From Acidobacteriales bacterium 13_2_20CM_55_8 (GTDB taxonomy: Bacteria > Acidobacteriota > Terriglobia > Terriglobales > Acidobacteriaceae), in the NCBI GenBank assembly GCA_001914815.1, contig MNDG01000003.1, positions 1,185-38,490 on the forward strand: a DNA stretch of 37,306 bases. The letters are read 5' to 3'. Made by a program: the position numbers and the translations under genes. The notes beneath the pieces were generated by a model. It ran no database searches and was not told the DNA's origin. It saw only the letters and a list, made by a program, of their open reading frames with translations. Of this stretch, positions 2,318 to 13,379 are shown piece after piece. Every line of letters begins with the position of its first letter. Within the stretch, counting starts at the first letter, position 1.

Positions 2318-3124
2318 CTACTTACTTCCCGCAGCCGCTGCGAAACGCGGTACCACTGGAAGAGCGCGAATAAGATCGCGCGTGTAGGCATGCGCGGGTT
2401 CGCGGAATATTTCGGCAGTACTCCGGCACTCAACAATCTCTCCCTGATGCATGACTGCCACTCGATGGCTAATGGTGGCTACGGAAAGCAGATCATGCGA
2501 GATATAGAGAATGCTCATCCCGAATTTTCGGTTGAGAGCAGCGAACAATTGCAGGATTTCAGCTTGCGTAATCAGGTCCAGGGCGCTGGTGGGCTCATCG
2601 GCAATCAGCAGCAGCGGGCGATGGAGAACGGCCATCGCGATTAGAACTCGCTGGGCCTGGCCGACACTTAGTTGCGAAGGATATCGTTTCAGAAAACCTT
2701 CTTCCGCGGGCAGGCTGACATTCTCCAAGGTTTCCATTAGAGCTTTCCGGCATTCCTGGCGACTGCCCTGCCGGTGGACGTTCCAGGCTTCTCCGAGCTG
2801 TCTGCCGATGCGCAGCGCAGGATTCAGCGCGGACATGGGACTTTGCAGCACCAGGCCAATTTCACGGCCGCGAAGAGCTCTCATGTCGCGCTCTTTGAGG
2901 GTCATCAGGTCGCGTCCATTGAGATGGATTGAACCTTCTGCAGCGCCGCCTCTTAAGTAAAGGAGCTTTAAGATCGCGAGGGCAAGTGTGCTTTTGCCGC
3001 ATCCACTCTGGCCTACCAAGCCCAAGACTTCTGCCTGGGATATTTCCAAAGAAAGGTCGCGGAGCACACCGCGTTTACCGGGATAGTCGACGGACAGACG
3101 AAGTGACAGGAGCGAGTCGCTCAT
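2318..3124 (-). CDS. ABC transporter ATP-binding protein, oligopeptide/dipeptide (OppD/DppD-like)
   Basis: Walker A GQSGCGKST, signature LSVGQAQRV, Walker B LLIADEPTSALD, H-loop YISHDL. Confidence 0.9.
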   Translation of the reverse strand: MSDSLLSLRLSVDYPGKRGVLRDLSLEISQAEVLGLVGQSGCGKSTLALAILKLLYLRGGAAEGSIHLNGRDLMTLKERDMRALRGREIGLVLQSPMSALNPALRIGRQLGEAWNVHRQGSRQECRKALMETLENVSLPAEEGFLKRYPSQLSVGQAQRVLIAMAVLHRPLLLIADEPTSALDLITQAEILQLFAALNRKFGMSILYISHDLLSVATISHRVAVMHQGEIVECRSTAEIFREPAHAYTRDLIRALPVVPRFAAAAGSK

Positions 3125-4752
3125 CGGTTCCTTGCTACCTCGGCGCCTAGCGAGAGCTGATCGATATTCCAGTAGACCTGAGGGCGCAACACCACCGGGT
3201 GCGCGTTGTGCAACGCGGGCGATACAGCCGAGAGCGCGTTTTTGTTTACCAGATAGATGAACGGTTCTTGGTCCCAGGCGATCTGCTGGACTTTGTCGAC
3301 GAATTCTTTGCGCTTGGCCGAGTTCAGGGTGGAGGCTTGTGCGCGCATTAATTTATCGATCTCAGCTTCCCACGCGGTGGCGGGAGTTTTCTGGCTGGGG
3401 TTCCATTGATGGTTTTCGGCGGAGCTGAGCCATACGTTCATTTGTGAGTTGGGATCGAGTTCGTTATTCACCAGGCCCAACAGGCAGCCCTCGTAGTCAA
3501 AGGTGCGGGTCATGCGTTCAATGAGCGAGGGGAAGTCCAGTGTGACTACATTCAGCTTGATGCCGATGCCTGTCAGGTCTTGCTGGATCATGGTGGCCAT
3601 ACGTTCGCGATATTTGTTGCCGGAGTTTGTGATGACGGAGAATTCGACGGCGTGTCCTTCGCGGTCGCGCAGCACGCCGTTCTGGAGGTGGAATCCGTCA
3701 AGGCTGAGACGTTGCAATGCGGACTTCTGGTCAAAGGGATGCGGTTGTAGTTTGGAATTGAACCAGAATTTGTTCGCCGGGGAAATCGGACCTACGGCAG
3801 GTCGAGCGCGTCCACGAAAAGCGATTCGGGACAGGTCCTCGCGGTTGATGGCTTCCGAAATGGCGCGGCGGAAATTCGTGGAAGTAAACCACGTCTTCTT
3901 GTACGACGGCAGCGGAGATCCGGGGACTTGATTGAACCACATGAACTCTGCGTCGAGCGAGGCGCCGGCGTCGTGCCCCATGGACGGATTTTCCGACATC
4001 ACTTTGTCGAAGTACTCGGCATCCACAGAGTTGATGAAGTCGATCTCGCCACGTACCAGACGGAGCATCTCGATGTCACGGTTCTGTTGAATGTCGAGGC
4101 GGATGGAATCAATGTAGGGTAACGCCCTGCCGGCGGCGTCATGCTTCCAGTAATTGGAGTTTCTTTTCAATATCAGGTAAGCGCCGGCTTTGTTTTCGGC
4201 TACGAAGTATGGTCCGAGGACAGCCATTTCTTTCTGCGGAGATTTTGCGGACATGATGGCTACCTGATCGAATAGCTTGTCTAGGCCCGCAATGGGAGCG
4301 GGGAAAGTAATCGCGATGCGATTCTTTGACAGCAACTGTGTTTGCACTTTGCCTTCGCCAGAGCGGAATGCGTCTCCGGTCGGCGAGTGTAGGGCAGGAT
4401 CCATGAGTTGCTGAACGGTGTAGGCCACATCGTCGGCTGAGAAGGTGGTTCCATCGGAGAAGCGGAGGTTGTCACGCAACTTGAAAGTGATGGTTTTTCC
4501 TGCGTCGGCTACTTTCCAGGAGGTCGCCAGTTCGGGTTCGAGTTCCTGGGTGAGGCGGTTTACGCGCATGAGGACACCGCCGGTCAGATACCGGATGGTC
4601 TCAGAAGAATCGTCAGACATTAGGAGCGGATTCAAGGTTTTCGGTTCGGAGCGTAGGCAGAAGCGCAATTCTCCGCCGGATTGTGCGAGCGCGCCGCTCG
4701 CCAAAAGAGCGACGAAAATTAGCAGAACAACATTAGCGATACGTTTTCTCAT
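3121..4752 (-). CDS. ABC transporter substrate-binding protein, family 5 (OppA/DppA-like)
   Basis: Signal peptide ...LLASGALAQ; LRSEPKTLNPL, LATSWKVADAGKTITFKLRDNLRFSDGTTFSADDVAYT typical of SBP_bac_5. Confidence 0.9.
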   Translation of the reverse strand: MRKRIANVVLLIFVALLASGALAQSGGELRFCLRSEPKTLNPLLMSDDSSETIRYLTGGVLMRVNRLTQELEPELATSWKVADAGKTITFKLRDNLRFSDGTTFSADDVAYTVQQLMDPALHSPTGDAFRSGEGKVQTQLLSKNRIAITFPAPIAGLDKLFDQVAIMSAKSPQKEMAVLGPYFVAENKAGAYLILKRNSNYWKHDAAGRALPYIDSIRLDIQQNRDIEMLRLVRGEIDFINSVDAEYFDKVMSENPSMGHDAGASLDAEFMWFNQVPGSPLPSYKKTWFTSTNFRRAISEAINREDLSRIAFRGRARPAVGPISPANKFWFNSKLQPHPFDQKSALQRLSLDGFHLQNGVLRDREGHAVEFSVITNSGNKYRERMATMIQQDLTGIGIKLNVVTLDFPSLIERMTRTFDYEGCLLGLVNNELDPNSQMNVWLSSAENHQWNPSQKTPATAWEAEIDKLMRAQASTLNSAKRKEFVDKVQQIAWDQEPFIYLVNKNALSAVSPALHNAHPVVLRPQVYWNIDQLSLGAEVARNR

Positions 4753-5555
4753 GCTGCCAACTCCTCTTTGGTCAGGACCAGATGGAAGCTGCTGACGGTT
4801 GCGATGAACAACAGAAGTGGGACAAACTGCCAGGCTTGGGGGGAAATGGTGGAAAAGCTCTCCAGTTCACGTAACAGACTTCCCCAAGACGGGAGAGGTT
4901 CAGCCACGCCGAGGCCGAGAATTCCTAGATTTGCTTCGGTGAGAATGAATACCGGCACGGAAATCCAGAACTGTGCGTAGAGGACCGGTTTGAGATTCGG
5001 CATCAAATGCCGCCACAGCAGGCGAAAGCCGCTGCTGCCGGAGGCCCTGGCCAGCAAAATAAAATCCGATTGCGATAAGGCTCGGGCGTCGGCGCAGATC
5101 ACACGAGCGGCGCCGGCCCAGCCCAGGCATCCCAGTAATGTGAAAGTTATCATTACTGAAACTTGCGGGGAGACGTTCAGGGGAAGCAGGGCGCGGACTG
5201 TAATCAGCAAGAACAGCCAAGGCAGCGACAAAAAAAGATCCGTAGCGGCCATGACACAGCGCTGCAGCCAACCGCCTCCAAAACCGGCGATACCGCCGAC
5301 CACCGCGGCCAGCAAAGTGGAGAACAAAGCGGCAGCCGGAGCCAATAACAGCGAGACGCGAGTTCCGTAGAGCACGCGGGAAAAGCGATCGCGTCCCAGG
5401 TCGTCGGTGCCGAGGAGATGTTGGTGCGAAGGGGCCGCCGCGGGAACGTCGCGAAACTGGCGAGCATAGGAAGCTGGAGCCACGAAGTCGGCCAGCAGAC
5501 ATGCGGTCGAGATGAGCACAAGAAAAACAATTGCGATGGAACGGGCCCACTTCAT
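4749..5555 (-). CDS. ABC transporter permease (OppC/DppC-like)
   Basis: HLLGTDDLGRDRFSRVLYGTRVSLLLA motif of OppC; the track ORF reaches 5807, but the internal MKWARSIAIVFLV start at 5555 forms an ATGA overlap with the upstream gene. Confidence 0.85.
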   Translation of the reverse strand: MKWARSIAIVFLVLISTACLLADFVAPASYARQFRDVPAAAPSHQHLLGTDDLGRDRFSRVLYGTRVSLLLAPAAALFSTLLAAVVGGIAGFGGGWLQRCVMAATDLFLSLPWLFLLITVRALLPLNVSPQVSVMITFTLLGCLGWAGAARVICADARALSQSDFILLARASGSSGFRLLWRHLMPNLKPVLYAQFWISVPVFILTEANLGILGLGVAEPLPSWGSLLRELESFSTISPQAWQFVPLLLFIATVSSFHLVLTKEELAA

Positions 5556-6424
5556 GCGGATGCTCGGTGAAAAGATTGACCTAGCAAGTCGGAAGCGGAG
5601 TTTGCCACCAGAGTGACCAGCGTGACAATCATGGTGAGATTGATCAGCAAGGCAATGTCGCGTCCCAGGGCGGCTTTCCAGGCAAGCTGTCCGATCCCGG
5701 GCAAGTCGCATAGAGCTTCGATTGGAATGGCTGCTGCGAACGCCATGCTCACCGATACTCCGGCAAGCGCGAGCAATTGAGGCGCGGCCGGCGGCAGAAT
5801 GTGCCAAACGAGCAGACGCATGTTGCCTAACCCTTTGGCTCTGGCGGTCAATACATGAGGGAGGGATGAACTTCGCGCCAGCAGATTTCGCGAGAAGCGA
5901 AAGATTTTGGGAAAGACAATAAGTCCGAGGACAAGACGTGCCGGCGCCTGTGCCAAGACAAACAGCAACGCCAATACCGCTGCAGGCAGGCAGAGCAGCG
6001 TTCCAGCCAACAGGCTGGCGCCGAGATCAAGATACCAGGCGCGGGACATCACGATTGCGATTGCCAAAGACAAACCTAATGTCCAAGCAAATGCCAGTCC
6101 TAGTCCGATTGACTTGAGAGTCTCCGGCATGCGCTCGGCGAGAAGCTGTGAGACTGGCCGCTGCAGGGTGCGAGAAGTGCCCAGATCACCATGGAGGACG
6201 CGGTTCAAATAATGAAAATAGAAAACGGCGAGGTTTTGATCAGTTGTTTGGGCTTGTCGCAGGGTTTGAATGCTTTCATTGCTAAGACGTACGTCCAGCT
6301 CTTCTTCATCGACACCAAAGCCCGGAGCTAGCCGCACCAGAGTTGCGCCCAGAAAACCGCCGAGCAGAACGACTGTCAGGATCTTGACCGCGAGTTTTGC
6401 CAATCCAGACAACTTGAGGTGCAT
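5552..6424 (-). CDS. ABC transporter permease (OppB/DppB-like)
   Basis: HYLNRVLHGDLGTSRTLQRPVSQLLAERMPETLKSIGL, multiple TM segments; translationally coupled to OppC. Confidence 0.85.
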   Translation of the reverse strand: MHLKLSGLAKLAVKILTVVLLGGFLGATLVRLAPGFGVDEEELDVRLSNESIQTLRQAQTTDQNLAVFYFHYLNRVLHGDLGTSRTLQRPVSQLLAERMPETLKSIGLGLAFAWTLGLSLAIAIVMSRAWYLDLGASLLAGTLLCLPAAVLALLFVLAQAPARLVLGLIVFPKIFRFSRNLLARSSSLPHVLTARAKGLGNMRLLVWHILPPAAPQLLALAGVSVSMAFAAAIPIEALCDLPGIGQLAWKAALGRDIALLINLTMIVTLVTLVANSASDLLGQSFHRASA

Positions 6425-6451: not shown

Positions 6452-9172
6452 TCAACGATTCAAAAGCTTACTGAGGTAGCGATTGTCGTAAAACTTCGTG
6501 CTGTTCTGAACGAATTCCAGGACGCGATGCATCTTGTCCCGCCCTTCACGATTCATATCGTTGAAGCGGACAGCGATACCGGATCCAGGATCGATACGCA
6601 CTACGCTGCCTTCGGCCTGCATCTTGCCATCATCGATAGAGAAAATCAGCTTGAGCTTGGAACCTGCGGGCATGATGGCGCTGGTTTCCACGAAGCAGCC
6701 TCCCAGACTCATGTCGGTTAAGTTGGCGAGCAGCGGGGCCTCCGAGCCATGCGGCTGCAACTCGATGGTGACGCGGCATTTCATGCGTGGATAGATCCTG
6801 CGGTTTTTGCGCGAGGGCTGTTGCTGCTTCTCGATGTACATGCGGCGATCGGCTTCGGCCAGCAGTTCCTCCGCATCCTGTCCATCCTTGGGATACAAAG
6901 CTTGTCCCACACTTAGCGAGAGAATGTCTTCGCCACAAACTTCGTGTCCAGCATGCTTGGCCAGTTCCCGCAGTTGGTCCGCTTTCTTGGCGACGGTTTC
7001 CGGCGGCAGGCCGGGAGCAACGACTACGAATTCGTCTCCACCCATACGGGCCACGTAGTCGTACTCTCGGCAGCTGTCTTTCAAAGCCACAGCAAAGAGG
7101 CGAAGGACGCGATTGCCCTCTAAATGGCCGAAGCGATCGTTAATCTGCTTGAACCCGTCCATATCGCAGACCATGACGGTGAGGGAGGACGTATCGCGCT
7201 TGCAGCGGGCTAATTCCCGGTCGAGTTGCAGGAATAACGAACGCGCGTTGGGCAGTCCGGTGAGATAGTCGGTGGTGGCTGAACTTTCCGCCTGTTCATA
7301 TTTCAGCGCGTTCTCCACTGCCAGCGCCATCTTAGAGCTGATAGCCAGCAGGATGCGCAAGTGATCGGAAGTGAACGCGTCTCGCTCTGCGTGATAAACC
7401 GCAAGCACGCCAACCACGCCGGCCAGACCTTCCAAAGGAATTGCCAGAGCGGAACGCAAGGTGCTGAACTTGGTTGGATCGTTCAAGTATCCTGGCTCCA
7501 CCGAAGGATTGCCATTGATGATGGGCTTTTTGTTTTGTGCCACCCACCCGGAAAGGCCCTGCCCTAGCGGAATGCGCAGCGACGCGAACAAACGGAAGTT
7601 GTCGCCATTGACGTACTCGGGGATCAGTTCGACATTTCGCTTGACGTAAATGGCAATCGCGTCGTAAGGAACTAGACGGCGCAATTTCAAGGAAAAGACG
7701 GACAGAGTTTCGCCCAGGCTCAGCGAAGCTCCCAAATCCTGGCTGAGCTCGAATAGAGTCTGCGCTTCCTGCCGCGCAGCCGCGATGGAGGAAAGGAAGT
7801 TGGCTTCCTGACCGGGTGCGTCTTTTACCGAGATGTCTTCAAATCCCGCGGCTGGGGCCAATCCCCGTTCGACCTTGACGTCGGTGGACAATTTGGACGC
7901 GACTTCATGTCCGAATTGATCTTCCACCAATTTTTCCAGGTGAAGGTAACGCTTCTGCAGGACGTCCACTACTTTTGGATCAAACGCTTTGGCCGATTCC
8001 GCCGACAATCGCTGGATCACTTCTTCCAGCGGCAAAGCCCTGCGATATTGGCGGTCCGAGGCCAGGGCGTCCAGATAATCCACCGCGGAGAGAATGCGCG
8101 CACCGATCGGGATTTCTTCACCTCTGAGTCCGAAGGGATATCCGGTGCCATCCCACTTCTCGTGGTGGGCCCGCACAATCGGTACAACCGGATAGGGGAA
8201 TCGCACCCGCTCCAAAATTTCAGCCCCGACGACGGGGTGAATTTTCATCTTCTCGAATTCTTCCGGCGTCAATCGCCCGGGTTTGGAGATGATGTGCTCC
8301 GGCACGGCCAGTTTGCCAATGTCGTGCAGGAGCGCGGCAGCGTGCAGGGCTTCCATTTCTCCGGGAGTCACATTCAACTCTTTAGCTACTTCAATGGCGT
8401 ACACCCGCACCCGCTGCAAGTGGTCGTGAGTAGTGTGATCCTTGGCTTCGATGGCCAAAGCCAGCGCCTCAATAGTTCGCAGGTGGAGGTTTGCCATCTC
8501 CTCGACGTGGCGCTTCTCGTCTTCCAGTTTGCCGAGGTAGAGACGGTAAGAACGGTAGATCAGGTAAATGACCGGCACTACCAGCAGCGACGCTTGCCAG
8601 CCAAATTTTCCATTCAACCAGCCCACCACGCCCGCGAGCCCGGCGCCGACCAGGTAATAAGGGAACGACCAGAAATAACACTCCACCCAGATTCGCCTTA
8701 GCGATTTGCCCTCAGTGAGCGAGATGACGGCGGCAATGGAACCGGTGTTGGCCACAAAGTACGTACTGGCGGCAACGATCAGCACCAGGGGGTGGGTGTG
8801 TGGGGGCCAGTGGCTGAAGGCTATGTGATACACGTCATAGGCCACGGCAATCGAGAAAGCGCTCGCGCAGATATTGAACGTCACCTGAATCGCGCTGGGG
8901 CGATCACGATAAAAACACTGCACCAAGATGGCGGCAGTGCCGAGGACGAGAGTCTCAGTAAAGCTCAGCTCCAAAATGCCCAAAAGGATGAAGAGGAAAT
9001 TGACGGACATGGTGCCGGTAATTCCCGGCAGGTTGACTTTGAGGCGTGACGCCAGAAGAGCGATTAACAGGTAACAAATGAACTGAGCCGTAACGACAAG
9101 GCTGATGAGCAGCTTGGCGCCCGGGGTCAAGTCTCTCCAATTCTGAGAGCGGTTAACCACGTCCCTCCGCAT
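6452..9172 (-). CDS. Multi-domain c-di-GMP protein: N-terminal TM region, HD-GYP, GAF, GGDEF, C-terminal PilZ
   Basis: LLHDIGKLAVPEHI and HHEKWDGTGYP (HD-GYP); GAF-like stretch; REYD-YVARM-GGDEF (I-site and A-site intact); RIYPR and DMSLGG (PilZ motifs). Confidence 0.92.
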   Translation of the reverse strand: MRRDVVNRSQNWRDLTPGAKLLISLVVTAQFICYLLIALLASRLKVNLPGITGTMSVNFLFILLGILELSFTETLVLGTAAILVQCFYRDRPSAIQVTFNICASAFSIAVAYDVYHIAFSHWPPHTHPLVLIVAASTYFVANTGSIAAVISLTEGKSLRRIWVECYFWSFPYYLVGAGLAGVVGWLNGKFGWQASLLVVPVIYLIYRSYRLYLGKLEDEKRHVEEMANLHLRTIEALALAIEAKDHTTHDHLQRVRVYAIEVAKELNVTPGEMEALHAAALLHDIGKLAVPEHIISKPGRLTPEEFEKMKIHPVVGAEILERVRFPYPVVPIVRAHHEKWDGTGYPFGLRGEEIPIGARILSAVDYLDALASDRQYRRALPLEEVIQRLSAESAKAFDPKVVDVLQKRYLHLEKLVEDQFGHEVASKLSTDVKVERGLAPAAGFEDISVKDAPGQEANFLSSIAAARQEAQTLFELSQDLGASLSLGETLSVFSLKLRRLVPYDAIAIYVKRNVELIPEYVNGDNFRLFASLRIPLGQGLSGWVAQNKKPIINGNPSVEPGYLNDPTKFSTLRSALAIPLEGLAGVVGVLAVYHAERDAFTSDHLRILLAISSKMALAVENALKYEQAESSATTDYLTGLPNARSLFLQLDRELARCKRDTSSLTVMVCDMDGFKQINDRFGHLEGNRVLRLFAVALKDSCREYDYVARMGGDEFVVVAPGLPPETVAKKADQLRELAKHAGHEVCGEDILSLSVGQALYPKDGQDAEELLAEADRRMYIEKQQQPSRKNRRIYPRMKCRVTIELQPHGSEAPLLANLTDMSLGGCFVETSAIMPAGSKLKLIFSIDDGKMQAEGSVVRIDPGSGIAVRFNDMNREGRDKMHRVLEFVQNSTKFYDNRYLSKLLNR

Positions 9173-9649: not shown

Positions 9650-11473
9650 ATGAAGCAAAAAAACCGAAACGAACGGAGCTTCACCGCCAACACCGTAGGC
9701 AGGTGGACCACGCTCACTGCAGTACTCGTGGTCCTTCTAGGAACGTCCAGTTTCGGATTTGGTCAGGGACATTCGCAGTCCACCCGAGAAAAGGGCAACT
9801 CAAGTGTACGCACCACGCTGTCACCGGAACTTTCTACAATCCTGGCTGGGCTTCAAAATCGGTCTTCGAACCAACGTTTAGACGTGATTGTGCAATTCAA
9901 GCATTCCCCATCCGATAGTCGGATTCAAACGGTGAAAGCTCTGGGCGGAGTTTCGCGCCATCGGCTGAATGTGATTCGCGGTGGCCTGTTTAATCTTACT
10001 GTGAACGGAATCAGGGCTCTGGCCAAGGATCCTGAAGTTGCTTACATCTCGCCCAATCGTTCATTGAATGGAGCGTCCGACTACACCGAAGCCACAGTGG
10101 GCGCGGACGTAGCCCAAAGTTATGGCTGGGACGGCGCCGGAGTGACAGTGGCGGTGATCGATAGTGGTATCAGCAATCACCCCGATCTGCGCGATCCAGT
10201 CTCAGGCCAATCGCGGGTGGTATACAGCGAGAGTTTTGTCCCCGGCACCGATGCCAGTGACCAATACGGCCACGGTACACACGTCGCCGGCATCCTCGCC
10301 GGCAATGGAACGCAATCAGGTGGTCCGAGCAATTCTTCAAGAATCTACGGCGTTGCTCCCAGCGTCAAGCTGGTTAACCTGAAGGTCCTGGACGTGAATG
10401 GACGAGGGCAGGATTCCTATGTCATCGCGGCCCTGCAACGCGCCGTAGTGCTTAAAGACACATACGGCATTCGTATCGTCAACTTGTCATTGGGACGACC
10501 AGTATTCGAAAGTTACACTCAGGATCCACTCTGCCAAGCAGTGGAAGCGGCTTGGCAAGCTGGATTGATCGTGATTGTGGCGGCTGGAAATGACGGCCGC
10601 AGAAATACTTACGGCATGCACGGCTACGGCACAGTTGCAGCTCCAGGCAATGATCCCTATGTAATTACTGTCGGTGCAATGAATGCCAAGAATACTGCTA
10701 ACCCGGCAGATGATGTCATCACCACTTACAGTTCGAAGGGGCCCACGATGTTGGATCACGTCGTGAAACCCGACCTGGTTGCTCCCGGCAACCGCATCGC
10801 CTCGCTGCTCGTGCCTAGAAGCACGCTGGATCTGAAGTTGCCGAGCAATGAAGTATCGCCGCCAAGTTACGGAGGCAATTTTTGGAGCCCGAAATCGTAC
10901 TTCATCCTGAGCGGCACGAGTATGGCGACACCAGTGGTAAGTGGAGCCGCCGCACTGATGCTAGAGCAGGACAGCAGTCTCACCCCGGATCTGGTGAAGG
11001 CCCGCCTGATGAAGACTGCCGATAAGGTCTTTCCCGTAAGCTCGAGACTTACCGTCGGAAGCATCACCGACGATTATCAATACGACATTTTCACGGTGGG
11101 CGCGGGTTATCTCGACATTCCTGGCGCCTTAGCGAATAACGACACGGTGACGGGTACCGCGCTCTCGCCGATCGCGGTACGCGATTCTTCCGGCACTGTC
11201 TCTCTTGTGGCCGATGCCTCTTCCGTCTGGAGTAACTCCGTGATCTGGGGTAACTCCGTGATCTGGGAAAGTTCAGTCATCTGGGGAAACGCTTTGGTTA
11301 GCGGAACCTCGGTGATCTGGGGGAATTCAGTAGTGTGGGGCAACGCCACACTGGATGGCTGCAGCGTAATCTGGGGCAGCTCGGTTATTTGGGGCTCTAC
11401 AGTCGGCGCAACCGACGCAGGAAATGATGCCCTGAGCATTGACGGGGGCGGAGACGACGACGAGTTACCATGA
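9650..11473 (+). CDS. Secreted S8 (subtilisin-like) serine protease with I9-like propeptide and C-terminal W-hexad repeat
   Basis: Catalytic triad contexts VAVIDSGI, YGHGTHVAGI, LSGTSMATPVVSGAAA; propeptide RLDVIVQFKH...LFNLTVNGIRALAKDPEVAYISPNR; hydrophobic N-terminus; tail SVIWGN repeats. Confidence 0.95.
   Translation: MKQKNRNERSFTANTVGRWTTLTAVLVVLLGTSSFGFGQGHSQSTREKGNSSVRTTLSPELSTILAGLQNRSSNQRLDVIVQFKHSPSDSRIQTVKALGGVSRHRLNVIRGGLFNLTVNGIRALAKDPEVAYISPNRSLNGASDYTEATVGADVAQSYGWDGAGVTVAVIDSGISNHPDLRDPVSGQSRVVYSESFVPGTDASDQYGHGTHVAGILAGNGTQSGGPSNSSRIYGVAPSVKLVNLKVLDVNGRGQDSYVIAALQRAVVLKDTYGIRIVNLSLGRPVFESYTQDPLCQAVEAAWQAGLIVIVAAGNDGRRNTYGMHGYGTVAAPGNDPYVITVGAMNAKNTANPADDVITTYSSKGPTMLDHVVKPDLVAPGNRIASLLVPRSTLDLKLPSNEVSPPSYGGNFWSPKSYFILSGTSMATPVVSGAAALMLEQDSSLTPDLVKARLMKTADKVFPVSSRLTVGSITDDYQYDIFTVGAGYLDIPGALANNDTVTGTALSPIAVRDSSGTVSLVADASSVWSNSVIWGNSVIWESSVIWGNALVSGTSVIWGNSVVWGNATLDGCSVIWGSSVIWGSTVGATDAGNDALSIDGGGDDDELP
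11219..11398 (+). repeat. Ten tandem hexads (protein level) in the protease tail
   Basis: SSVWSN SVIWGN SVIWES SVIWGN ALVSGT SVIWGN SVVWGN ATLDGC SVIWGS SVIWGS; codons vary between hexads. Confidence 0.9.
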
Positions 11474-11557
11474 CCGGTCGGCACGCCCGGTTGATGATTT
11501 GATGAAGCGATAACGACATAAAGACTTGAAGATTAACCGCAGGGTGAGGAGAAGGGC

Positions 11558-11659
11558 ATGAAAAACAGAATTAGCAAATTGGTCTACGGCTTACTGGTTC
11601 CGGCGATCGTCGCACTACTGGCAATCGCATGCAATGCCTCGGCGGTTTGGGGCAGCTAA
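11558..11659 (+). CDS. 33-aa micro-ORF 1: MKNRISKLVYGLLVPAIVALLAIACNASAVWGS
   Basis: Strong Shine-Dalgarno-like AGGAGAAGG upstream; positively charged N-terminus, hydrophobic core, ASA then VWGS stop. Not in supplied ORF track. Confidence 0.7.
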   Translation: MKNRISKLVYGLLVPAIVALLAIACNASAVWGS

Positions 11660-11662
11660 TTG

Positions 11663-11678
11663 CGGAGCATTGGCTCCG
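11663..11678 (+). other. Intercistronic hairpin CGGAGC-ATTG-GCTCCG
   Basis: Perfect 6-bp stem with 4-nt loop between the two micro-ORFs; no T-run. Confidence 0.45.
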
Positions 11679-11712
11679 TCAGAATGGAATAGAACACGGC
11701 AGTGGAGACACT

Positions 11713-11814
11713 ATGAACCGATTCAAGAAACCAGCAATTGCGATTCTTCTACTCACGACGGCGATATTGGCGCTCAGTCTGCTTTCGGCCGCATCGGCGG
11801 TATGGGGTAGCTAA
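11713..11814 (+). CDS. 33-aa micro-ORF 2: MNRFKKPAIAILLLTTAILALSLLSAASAVWGS
   Basis: Internal ATG of track ORF 11629..11814 with GGAG upstream; same length, same architecture and same ASAVWGS end as micro-ORF 1. Confidence 0.7.
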   Translation: MNRFKKPAIAILLLTTAILALSLLSAASAVWGS

Positions 11815-12047
11815 CAGATTGGGGTGGCTTGCACGATCCGGCCAGTCACCAGCCTGGCGGGCTCTGTCCGGCGACAGCTTACACTTGTTCGAACCTGCGT
11901 TCTAGTCCACGTTATCTCGCCTATCATCGAATCTGATTCGGACCCGGCCACACGGAAGTAACCTTTTCACGACCTTCAACAACATGCTAAAGAAGGTGCG
12001 GGGATTGGCGCGCCTCGGTGGGATAACTGCGCCTTTGTCTTCAACCC

Positions 12048-13379
12048 ATGAAACCGGCCGCCGAGATGCAACTCGTGGACGGGACCACTGCCGTGGTTCG
12101 CAGCGAAATCATGCGCAAGCTCATGGCCATGGTGGAACGTGTGGCCCAGCAGGACGCCGCGGTTTTGATTGTCGGTGAGACAGGCAGCGGCAAGGAAATG
12201 GTGGCCAAAGCCATCCATCAACATTCACTTCGTTGCGGCAAACCTTTTGTGGACGTAAATTGCGCTGCGCTTCCCGAACATCTGGTAGAAAGCGAATTGT
12301 TCGGGTACGAGAAGGGCGCTTTCAGCGGAGCTGACGTCACCAAGCCAGGGTTGTTTGAAATGTCGGACCAGGGAACGCTGTTGCTCGATGAAATTGGGGA
12401 ACTCGACGGCAAAGTTCAAGCAAAACTGCTTCGTGTGCTGGATGGAGTTGCCTACTATCGCCTAGGCGGCAGCCGGAAGGTTACGGTGAACGTACGCGTT
12501 ATCGCTGCCACGAATCGTGATCTGGAACAGGAAGTACAGGCCGGCAAATTCCGCCGTGATCTATACCATCGTCTCACCCAATTCCAGTTGCAGGTGCCAC
12601 CGTTACGAGAGCGTCTGGAGGATATCTCCGCCCTTGCGGAATTTTTTCTGCGCCAGCATGCTCCTTCGGCCAAATTCAGTGACGAAGCAATGCAAGCGCT
12701 TTTGCATTATCCCTGGCCGGGGAACGTGCGCGAACTGAAGAACGTGATTTTCAAAGCCGCCATGCATGCCAAGCCCGGCACCCGGGAGATCCGCGCCAGC
12801 GATCTTCCCGCCTCGGTTTGTGGCGCGCCGGAGATTTCTACCGCTGCCGCTTTTCAAGGGAATCTGGACGACATGGAAAAGCAAATGATCTTCCAGACTC
12901 TCGCTCGCACTGCAGGTAACCAGGCGAAAGCGGCCGAGCAACTGGGAATTTCCGGCCGTACCTTGCGGCGGAAATTAGCCAAGTACGAAAAACAGCAGAC
13001 AGCAGACGGCTCCCAAACGGCTTTGGGCACGCTCAGCGCTCCGCAGCAGCGTTATTTCCGCGTAACCCTGGACGTCCCAGTAATGCTTCAAGTGGACGGA
13101 GTACAGATAGAAGCCACTAGCGTCAACATCAGTTCTGGCGGACTCGCCATCAAGACACCGGCGCCTCTTTCCCATGGCAACATGATCGAAGTGTCTTTCA
13201 ATCTGCCGGGCACGTCTTCGCCCATTGAATTCAAAGGTAAACTAGCATGGGCCGCAACTGACGGCCTCACTGGTCTGAGCATCGTCGAGATTCATCCCGC
13301 ATTGCAACGCGAACTTCAACAGTGGCTGGTTGACAAAGCTAAGACGGAAGGCTGGGCGGAGGCGCAAGCTACGCATTAG
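12048..13379 (+). CDS. Sigma-54-type AAA+ regulator (bEBP-like) with Fis-type HTH and C-terminal PilZ domain
   Basis: GETGSGKE (Walker A), GAFSGA (variant of GAFTGA), LLLDEIGEL (Walker B), LGISGRTLRRKL HTH, then RYFRVTLDVPVML...NISSGG PilZ-like segment; no N-terminal sensory domain. Confidence 0.88.
   Translation: MKPAAEMQLVDGTTAVVRSEIMRKLMAMVERVAQQDAAVLIVGETGSGKEMVAKAIHQHSLRCGKPFVDVNCAALPEHLVESELFGYEKGAFSGADVTKPGLFEMSDQGTLLLDEIGELDGKVQAKLLRVLDGVAYYRLGGSRKVTVNVRVIAATNRDLEQEVQAGKFRRDLYHRLTQFQLQVPPLRERLEDISALAEFFLRQHAPSAKFSDEAMQALLHYPWPGNVRELKNVIFKAAMHAKPGTREIRASDLPASVCGAPEISTAAAFQGNLDDMEKQMIFQTLARTAGNQAKAAEQLGISGRTLRRKLAKYEKQQTADGSQTALGTLSAPQQRYFRVTLDVPVMLQVDGVQIEATSVNISSGGLAIKTPAPLSHGNMIEVSFNLPGTSSPIEFKGKLAWAATDGLTGLSIVEIHPALQRELQQWLVDKAKTEGWAEAQATH

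Follow-up and report, generated by a model that had tools for sequence, protein, structure and literature searches.

Two consecutive minigenes in the DNA that we analysed, a 37,306-nucleotide stretch from Acidobacteriales bacterium 13_2_20CM_55_8 (hereafter the window), encode 33-residue micropeptides whose extreme C-terminus reads as one repeat unit of the tail of the adjacent S8 protease. Peptides of this kind recur beside related proteases in other genomes, and their best explanation, which we hold at somewhat under even confidence, would be a protease-linked peptide signal that leaves the cell, may be taken up again and feeds into control through c-di-GMP or sigma54.

Signalling by linear peptides that are re-imported is known chiefly from Bacillota. 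For the Acidobacteriota, which rank among the soil bacteria that are both most abundant and least understood, the open-access papers searched contained no report of such signalling. Should the micropeptides prove to be signals, their exact sequences are available now and could be ordered for testing. If they are not, minigenes that match the tail in a widespread family of proteases nevertheless point to an unknown tail-binding partner. Gene callers are likely to overlook genes of this size.

Twin minigenes and the tail of the neighbouring protease

The original prediction, made from the letters of the window, described twin 33-codon open reading frames (ORFs) with a common ASAVWGS end, three silent differences and Shine-Dalgarno-like sites, all of which are present as described (Table 1). 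Each ORF comprises 33 codons followed by TAA, and over the last eight codons, counting the stop, A and B are distinguished by three third-position differences, all silent. Judged by their sequence, both products have a basic N-terminus, a hydrophobic core and the residues A-S-A. A longer upstream opening is possible for ORF B (61 aa from 11629), the conserved part being the one from 11713 only.

Table 1. Positions of the minigenes, the protease and their neighbours in the window
Feature	Position	Strand	Basis and remarks
Oligopeptide importer ATPase	2318..3124	-	PF00005 2.7e-27; oligo_HPY 3.4e-5, below gathering cut-off
Oligopeptide-binding protein, SBP family 5	3121..4752	-	PF00496 1.4e-63; linkage conserved
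Oligopeptide ABC importer permease	4749..5807	-	PF00528 2.8e-15; linkage conserved; first part overlaps the neighbouring gene (5552..6424), true start probably later
Oligopeptide ABC importer permease	5552..6424	-	PF00528 1e-14; linkage conserved
MASE9-like membrane domain with HD, GAF, GGDEF and PilZ (c-di-GMP sensor/effector)	6452..9172	-	Pfam; divergent from the S8 gene
Secreted S8 subtilase with WG-repeat tail	9650..11473	+	Hydrophobic N-terminus; PF00082 8.5e-55, residues 162-460
C-terminal repeat tail of the S8 protease	11220..11401	+	SVIWGN/SVVWGN/SVIWGS-type units; predicted disordered
Shine-Dalgarno-like GAGGAG, gene A	11546..11551	+	Sequence
Micropeptide gene A	11558..11659	+	MKNRISKLVYGLLVPAIVALLAIACNASAVWGS; signal-peptide-like; C-terminal single WG unit SAVWGS
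Shine-Dalgarno-like GGAG, gene B	11704..11707	+	Sequence
Micropeptide gene B	11713..11814	+	MNRFKKPAIAILLLTTAILALSLLSAASAVWGS; signal-peptide-like; C-terminal single WG unit SAVWGS
Sigma54-activator AAA+ / Fis HTH / PilZ regulator	12048..13379	+	Pfam; downstream of the micropeptide genes

Both ORFs are thus genuine minigenes and more than chance. The window contains exactly one pair of short ORFs with common last seven residues within 1 kb, and no such pair no more than 1 kb apart occurred in 300 first-order Markov windows of equal length, which were richer in short ORFs than the real window (906 vs 653). Within the 2.77-Mb genome the pattern AVWGS/T-TAR matched these two sites only, and its reversed control was absent. 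A consensus scan around the window minigenes returned no promoter or terminator, and the RNA 3' of them showed no unusual structure. The lipobox L-[ASTVI]-[GAS]-C is lacking in both products, gene B having no cysteine and gene A reading AIAC without the canonical leucine at -3, and no enzymes of RiPP maturation (radical SAM, YcaO, Lan) were present among the window genes scanned.

The protease carries the GTSMA serine motif, and the fold of its AlphaFold model matches PDB entries 3afg and 9ues. The catalytic part folds well in this model, which rests on a thin alignment of 29 sequences, and pLDDT is about 25 over most of residues 522-607, such that a folded repeat domain for the tail is unsupported with this alignment. 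The tail holds about seven motif repeats (SVIWGN), reading SVIWGNSVIWESSVIWGN...SVIWGSSVIWGS. Across 71 tails of acidobacterial S8 proteases of this type (WG-S8), the number of units ranges from 3 to 13 with a median of 8, and a tryptophan-to-tryptophan spacing of six residues dominates (325 intervals). At micropeptide-bearing loci the units are mostly S-[VA]-[IV]-W-G-[NS] (69 units), and the residue before [IV]WG is valine in 53 of these versus an invariant alanine in the micropeptides, a difference that fits a signal peptidase constraint on the latter. Codon use differs between minigene and tail units, which argues against recent DNA copying between the two.

Records titled Acidobacteriales, Terriglobia and Bryobacterales, most of them metagenome-assembled genomes (MAGs), contain the relatives of this protease. 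Genes for WG-tail S8 proteases often lie in two or three neighbouring copies, some with differing tail units (L006, L007, L008, L010, L013, L014, L076, L077 and L168). The S8 frame is split in G346 (L163 5253-7047) and G307 (L165 6318-7571), where the micropeptide ORFs are intact; an assembly or sequencing error, or decay, may account for the split. Most WG-S8 loci have no detectable micropeptide, and the micropeptide is thus an accessory and not an essential part.

Conservation of the micropeptides and their match to the tails

A family profile HMM built from the first five micropeptides was searched in 250 genomes of the family and returned matches in five genera (two genomes each in g1, g19, g116 and g123, one in g149), the weakest accepted match (G360, E 0.001) being kept because of its ending SAASAVWGN and an adjoining WG-tail S8 gene. 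All family micropeptides found, among them MKRFKKVSLVVLLLSAMVAGLSLLSAASAVWGN, MKSTKKAAIVAFLITAAVVAFSILSAASAVWGS, MKSSTKKLVLTLLVMAAVFGLAVTCSASAVWGG and MKEGLKKLKALGHILLAGAVVTVLALACSASAVWGS, end in ASAVWG[SNG] with ASAVWG invariant and variable N-terminal parts, and hence all contain the A-S-A site of the AxA type that had been predicted for the window pair. Their ORFs lie about 40-220 bp from a WG-tail S8 gene, down- or upstream of it: 3' of the protease in the window, L163, L164, L165 and L169, 5' in L166 and L167, and between two protease genes in L168. With minigenes on either side of the protease, the link is no positional accident of one lineage. In L004, the nearest relative, three Acido-Lenti-1 RNA matches (9787-9832, 11253-11298 and 11829-11874) lie at most 2.1 kb downstream of the S8/micropeptide region; none was reported in the window.

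Comparison of the last eight codons in four orthologue or family pairs revealed 2, 3, 6 and 4 silent changes and no amino-acid change, and gene A has no nonsynonymous change over these codons relative to its orthologue in G346/L004. A fifth pair, window B versus G251, has five silent changes and one S-to-N change at the last residue. Since changes at the end are silent only in these four pairs and the codons upstream of the last eight do contain amino-acid changes between relatives, purifying selection acts, on this codon pattern, on the micropeptide C-terminus as protein. The original prediction had proposed such selection from the twin copies, and these pairs bear it out. The prediction had also named what would speak against it, namely no conserved short ORFs in related genomes, or a shared ending eroded from a longer gene with non-silent changes. 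Both were looked for, and what was found are conserved short ORFs beside S8 genes in the five genera, with silent changes at their ends.

A class-wide search with an AVWG[NDSG]-stop DNA pattern gave matches that were mostly chance, about equal in number to those of the reversed control (the TRR of the pattern also took TGG); survivors of inspection were L125 and the L113 twin only. The candidate MKMFGLRSSAATAGLDSAAVWGS (L083/L114, G015) was rejected, its genome having no S8 relative at E 1e-20. A phylum-wide search for very short WG-ending genes yielded no convincing new case. ORFs ending in N[AV]LWG, sought as counterparts of the common NALWGS tails, matched twice in 300 family genomes, which provide no evidence of a minigene for this tail type.

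A second class of peptides is encoded in another family of the class by 16-codon genes of the form MK[VI][KR]SNVKAG plus six residues (cited form MKVKSNVKAG), located at L113 9860-10190 and in L176, L233, L234 and L238. These genes have strong ribosome-binding sites, most are followed by a hairpin and T-run, and some also have a hairpin upstream of the ribosome-binding site. They stand alone, apparently away from matching proteases (neighbours inspected by eye), and their products have no export signal or signal-peptide-like region recognisable by sequence. The peptides of L235 and L237 share a leader-like start, MKTKTNVKAG, and have unrelated C-termini (MKTKTNVKAGGIAVPERR; MKTKTNVKAGRKAGVDFNENETSGLRVQTSLKAGRRAN), which suggests a wider leader family.

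The C-terminal hexapeptides of the 16-residue class resemble the S8 tails of their own genomes: MAVWGD (twice) and MAVWGDMAVWGD in G243, TGLWGD and NGLWGD in G498, QCIWAS and QSIWAS/QCIWAA in G181, and KGLWGA and RSVWGA/RGVWGA in G201. The second hexapeptide of G201, ASNWGD, is unmatched among the tails recovered there, one S8 gene of that genome being cut off before the tail. In L009 and L012, which lie outside the window's family, an ORF ending in NAVWGD lies a short way 5' of an S8 gene whose tail units read SVVWGD. When micropeptide units were scored against own-genome tails over eight entries, with the window's family collapsed to one and in statistics that ignore phylogeny, the true pairing reached 266 (mean 202), a score that none of the 40,320 pairings exceeded and that only the swap of the identical L009/L012 units equalled (fraction 5e-5). 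The covariation of unit and tail between families thus appears strong, though not final. Within the window's family there is none (0.80 of shuffles reach the observed score); SAVWG is constant in the micropeptides there and does not follow the differences between tails. Taken on the sequences, the relationship between micropeptide and tail is well supported.

Gene neighbourhood and candidate functions

The minigenes and the protease are flanked in the window by genes for an oligopeptide importer, a MASE9-like membrane protein and a sigma54-Fis-PilZ regulator, the last of which also neighbours L125, L163, L164, L165 and L168. The MASE9-like copy of the window is below the PF20972 (MASE9) threshold and homologous to its relatives by phmmer; the cut-off is passed by the stand-alone homologue of L009 and by the fused homologues of L009 and L012. 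At S8 loci picked by similarity to the window's protease, a MASE9-like gene was present in 45/63 (40 within 600 bp), the importer in 16/68 and the sigma54 regulator in 18/68 versus 0/24 control loci in each case, fractions that are rough because the controls are chance-pattern-hit loci (250 kb vs 833 kb) and flanks are limited. In L009 the importer genes, the NAVWGD micropeptide ORF, the S8 gene and the MASE9 gene follow one another on one strand, with the sigma54 regulator divergent.

In Chloroflexi, c-di-GMP-I-GGC riboswitch aptamers lie directly 5' of S8 genes with SVNWG-repeat tails (L076 3336-3421 and L077 5667-5751), a second sign of c-di-GMP control. L077 has a short ORF ending in SSVNWG between the riboswitch and the S8 gene. 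It makes a weak case for a minigene, as L076, a near relative, has SENWG there and lacks a start codon.

Given the importer, membrane sensor and regulator genes around them, a peptide signal appears to be the likeliest use of the micropeptides. From the genes, their conservation, the match of unit and tail and the gene neighbourhood, all of which are observed, we infer a path of export, cleavage, release, import, sensing and output. The 33-residue precursor would enter the Sec pathway via its hydrophobic N-terminus; signal peptidase would cut at A-S-A to leave VWGS, or two residues earlier to leave the full unit SAVWGS, the two peptides being equally possible on the sequence. The WG-tail protease could release, trim or bind the motif, with its tail as multi-copy source or competitor. 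The peptide might then be sensed by the MASE9-HD-GAF-GGDEF-PilZ membrane protein, or the neighbouring oligopeptide importer might take it up for sensing in the cytoplasm. The candidate output is the sigma54-Fis-PilZ protein. A more elaborate form of this signal, a protease-borne pheromone system in which tandem units in the secreted tail and single units from minigenes are matched by lineage-wise coevolution and feed c-di-GMP control in a Gram-negative phylum, is doubtful at present.

Our confidence in a signal stays below even mainly because the 16-residue class has no known export route, its peptides lacking a recognisable export signal; this is the weakest point. The ASNWGD unit of G201 without a tail match, the many WG-S8 loci without a detectable micropeptide, the restriction of importer and sigma54 linkage to a subset of loci, and the failure of the unit to track tails inside the window's family also count against it. 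In a rather unlikely alternative, tail units dock a partner in the envelope (anchor, chaperone or sorting factor), and the micropeptide, as a free single unit, competes with this docking or regulates it, with no signal between cells. In favour of it, the tail is predicted to be disordered and made of linear motifs, the micropeptide unit matches it, and most acidobacterial WG-S8 genes retain their WG tails (71 tails, with a median of 8 units) without a micropeptide. Such docking leaves the importer and sigma54 regulator beside the minigenes unexplained, and we know of no docking partner of the WG tail. That every micropeptide ends at a repeat boundary, together with the dominant spacing of six and the tight gene linkage in the window's family, could also mean that the S8 protease cuts after WG[SND], that its tail is self-cleaved to units and that the micropeptide sits in the active site, either as an inhibitor of the product type or as a dedicated substrate. 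We consider this improbable, as the 16-residue peptides are encoded away from matching proteases and have no export signal, and how they would encounter an exported protease is not obvious.

For the 33-residue class, length, basic N-terminus and hydrophobic core would equally suit a membrane-tethered peptide whose hydrophobic segment stays uncleaved and displays ASAVWGS on the periplasmic side. The invariance of A-S-A, with alanine where tails mostly have valine, fits the requirement of signal peptidase instead and makes tethering quite improbable, and neither a generic membrane-tethered tag nor a protease inhibitor explains the other genes of the locus. ORFs that act as leader peptides or in attenuation and regulate only a neighbouring gene would be expected where the ORF is directly upstream of the S8 gene, as it is in G388/G404, L009 and L012; since the window and several other genomes have the ORF 3' of the S8 gene, and since the 16-residue genes stand alone and mostly have a T-run hairpin directly 3', this reading is very improbable. 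Finally, small size and a motif common to the tail are what chance ORFs or eroded remains of an S8 tail would share with the minigenes, an origin to which we give next to no credence: it is refuted by retention across genera with silent-only changes in the last codons, by the differing codons of minigene and tail, and by the 0/300 simulated windows.

Comparison with known peptide systems

In its catalytic domain and overall fold the window protease resembles S8 subtilases (Tk-SP, 3afg; subtilisin). Unlike the solved S8 structures it has a WG-repeat tail, which has no counterpart there, as sequence matches end before the tail. To our knowledge the relationship between minigene and protease tail likewise has no known counterpart.

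Among peptide signals, ComS/XIP and SHP of Streptococcus are made as very short precursors, the signal being their C-terminal residues, which Opp imports. The 16-residue peptides described here resemble ComS in their size and in a tryptophan near the C-terminus; no Rgg/ComR receptor was seen among the neighbours. How ComS/XIP and SHP pheromones are exported has been treated elsewhere (PMC5167397).

The Phr peptides of Bacillus come from small precursors exported by Sec, in which the active peptide typically forms the C-terminus; they are matured by extracellular proteases, S8 subtilases among them, and imported by the oligopeptide permease, and some propeptides carry tandem pheromone copies (PMC11343458). 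The set of parts here, a short and probably exported precursor with the candidate peptide at its C-terminus, a subtilase, an oligopeptide importer and regulator genes, is that of such Phr-Rap systems (RRNPP). By contrast, the phylum is Acidobacteriota, it is the tail of the protease itself that carries the tandem copies, and c-di-GMP and sigma54 proteins are the candidates for output. In Pfam scans, the neighbouring genes included no RRNPP/TPR receptor, and for this reason we claim a Phr-like working and not RRNPP membership.

The PipR system of Pseudomonas sp. GM79 is, like the locus described here, Gram-negative, with importer, peptidase and regulator genes clustered; it differs in its LuxR-type regulator and in aminopeptidases rather than a subtilase, and we know of no self-encoded peptide for it. 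Its cluster encodes a peptide ABC importer, peptidases and the regulator, and an importer mutant loses the peptide response (PMC4981722). PipR is a Gram-negative precedent for a peptide response that depends on an importer.
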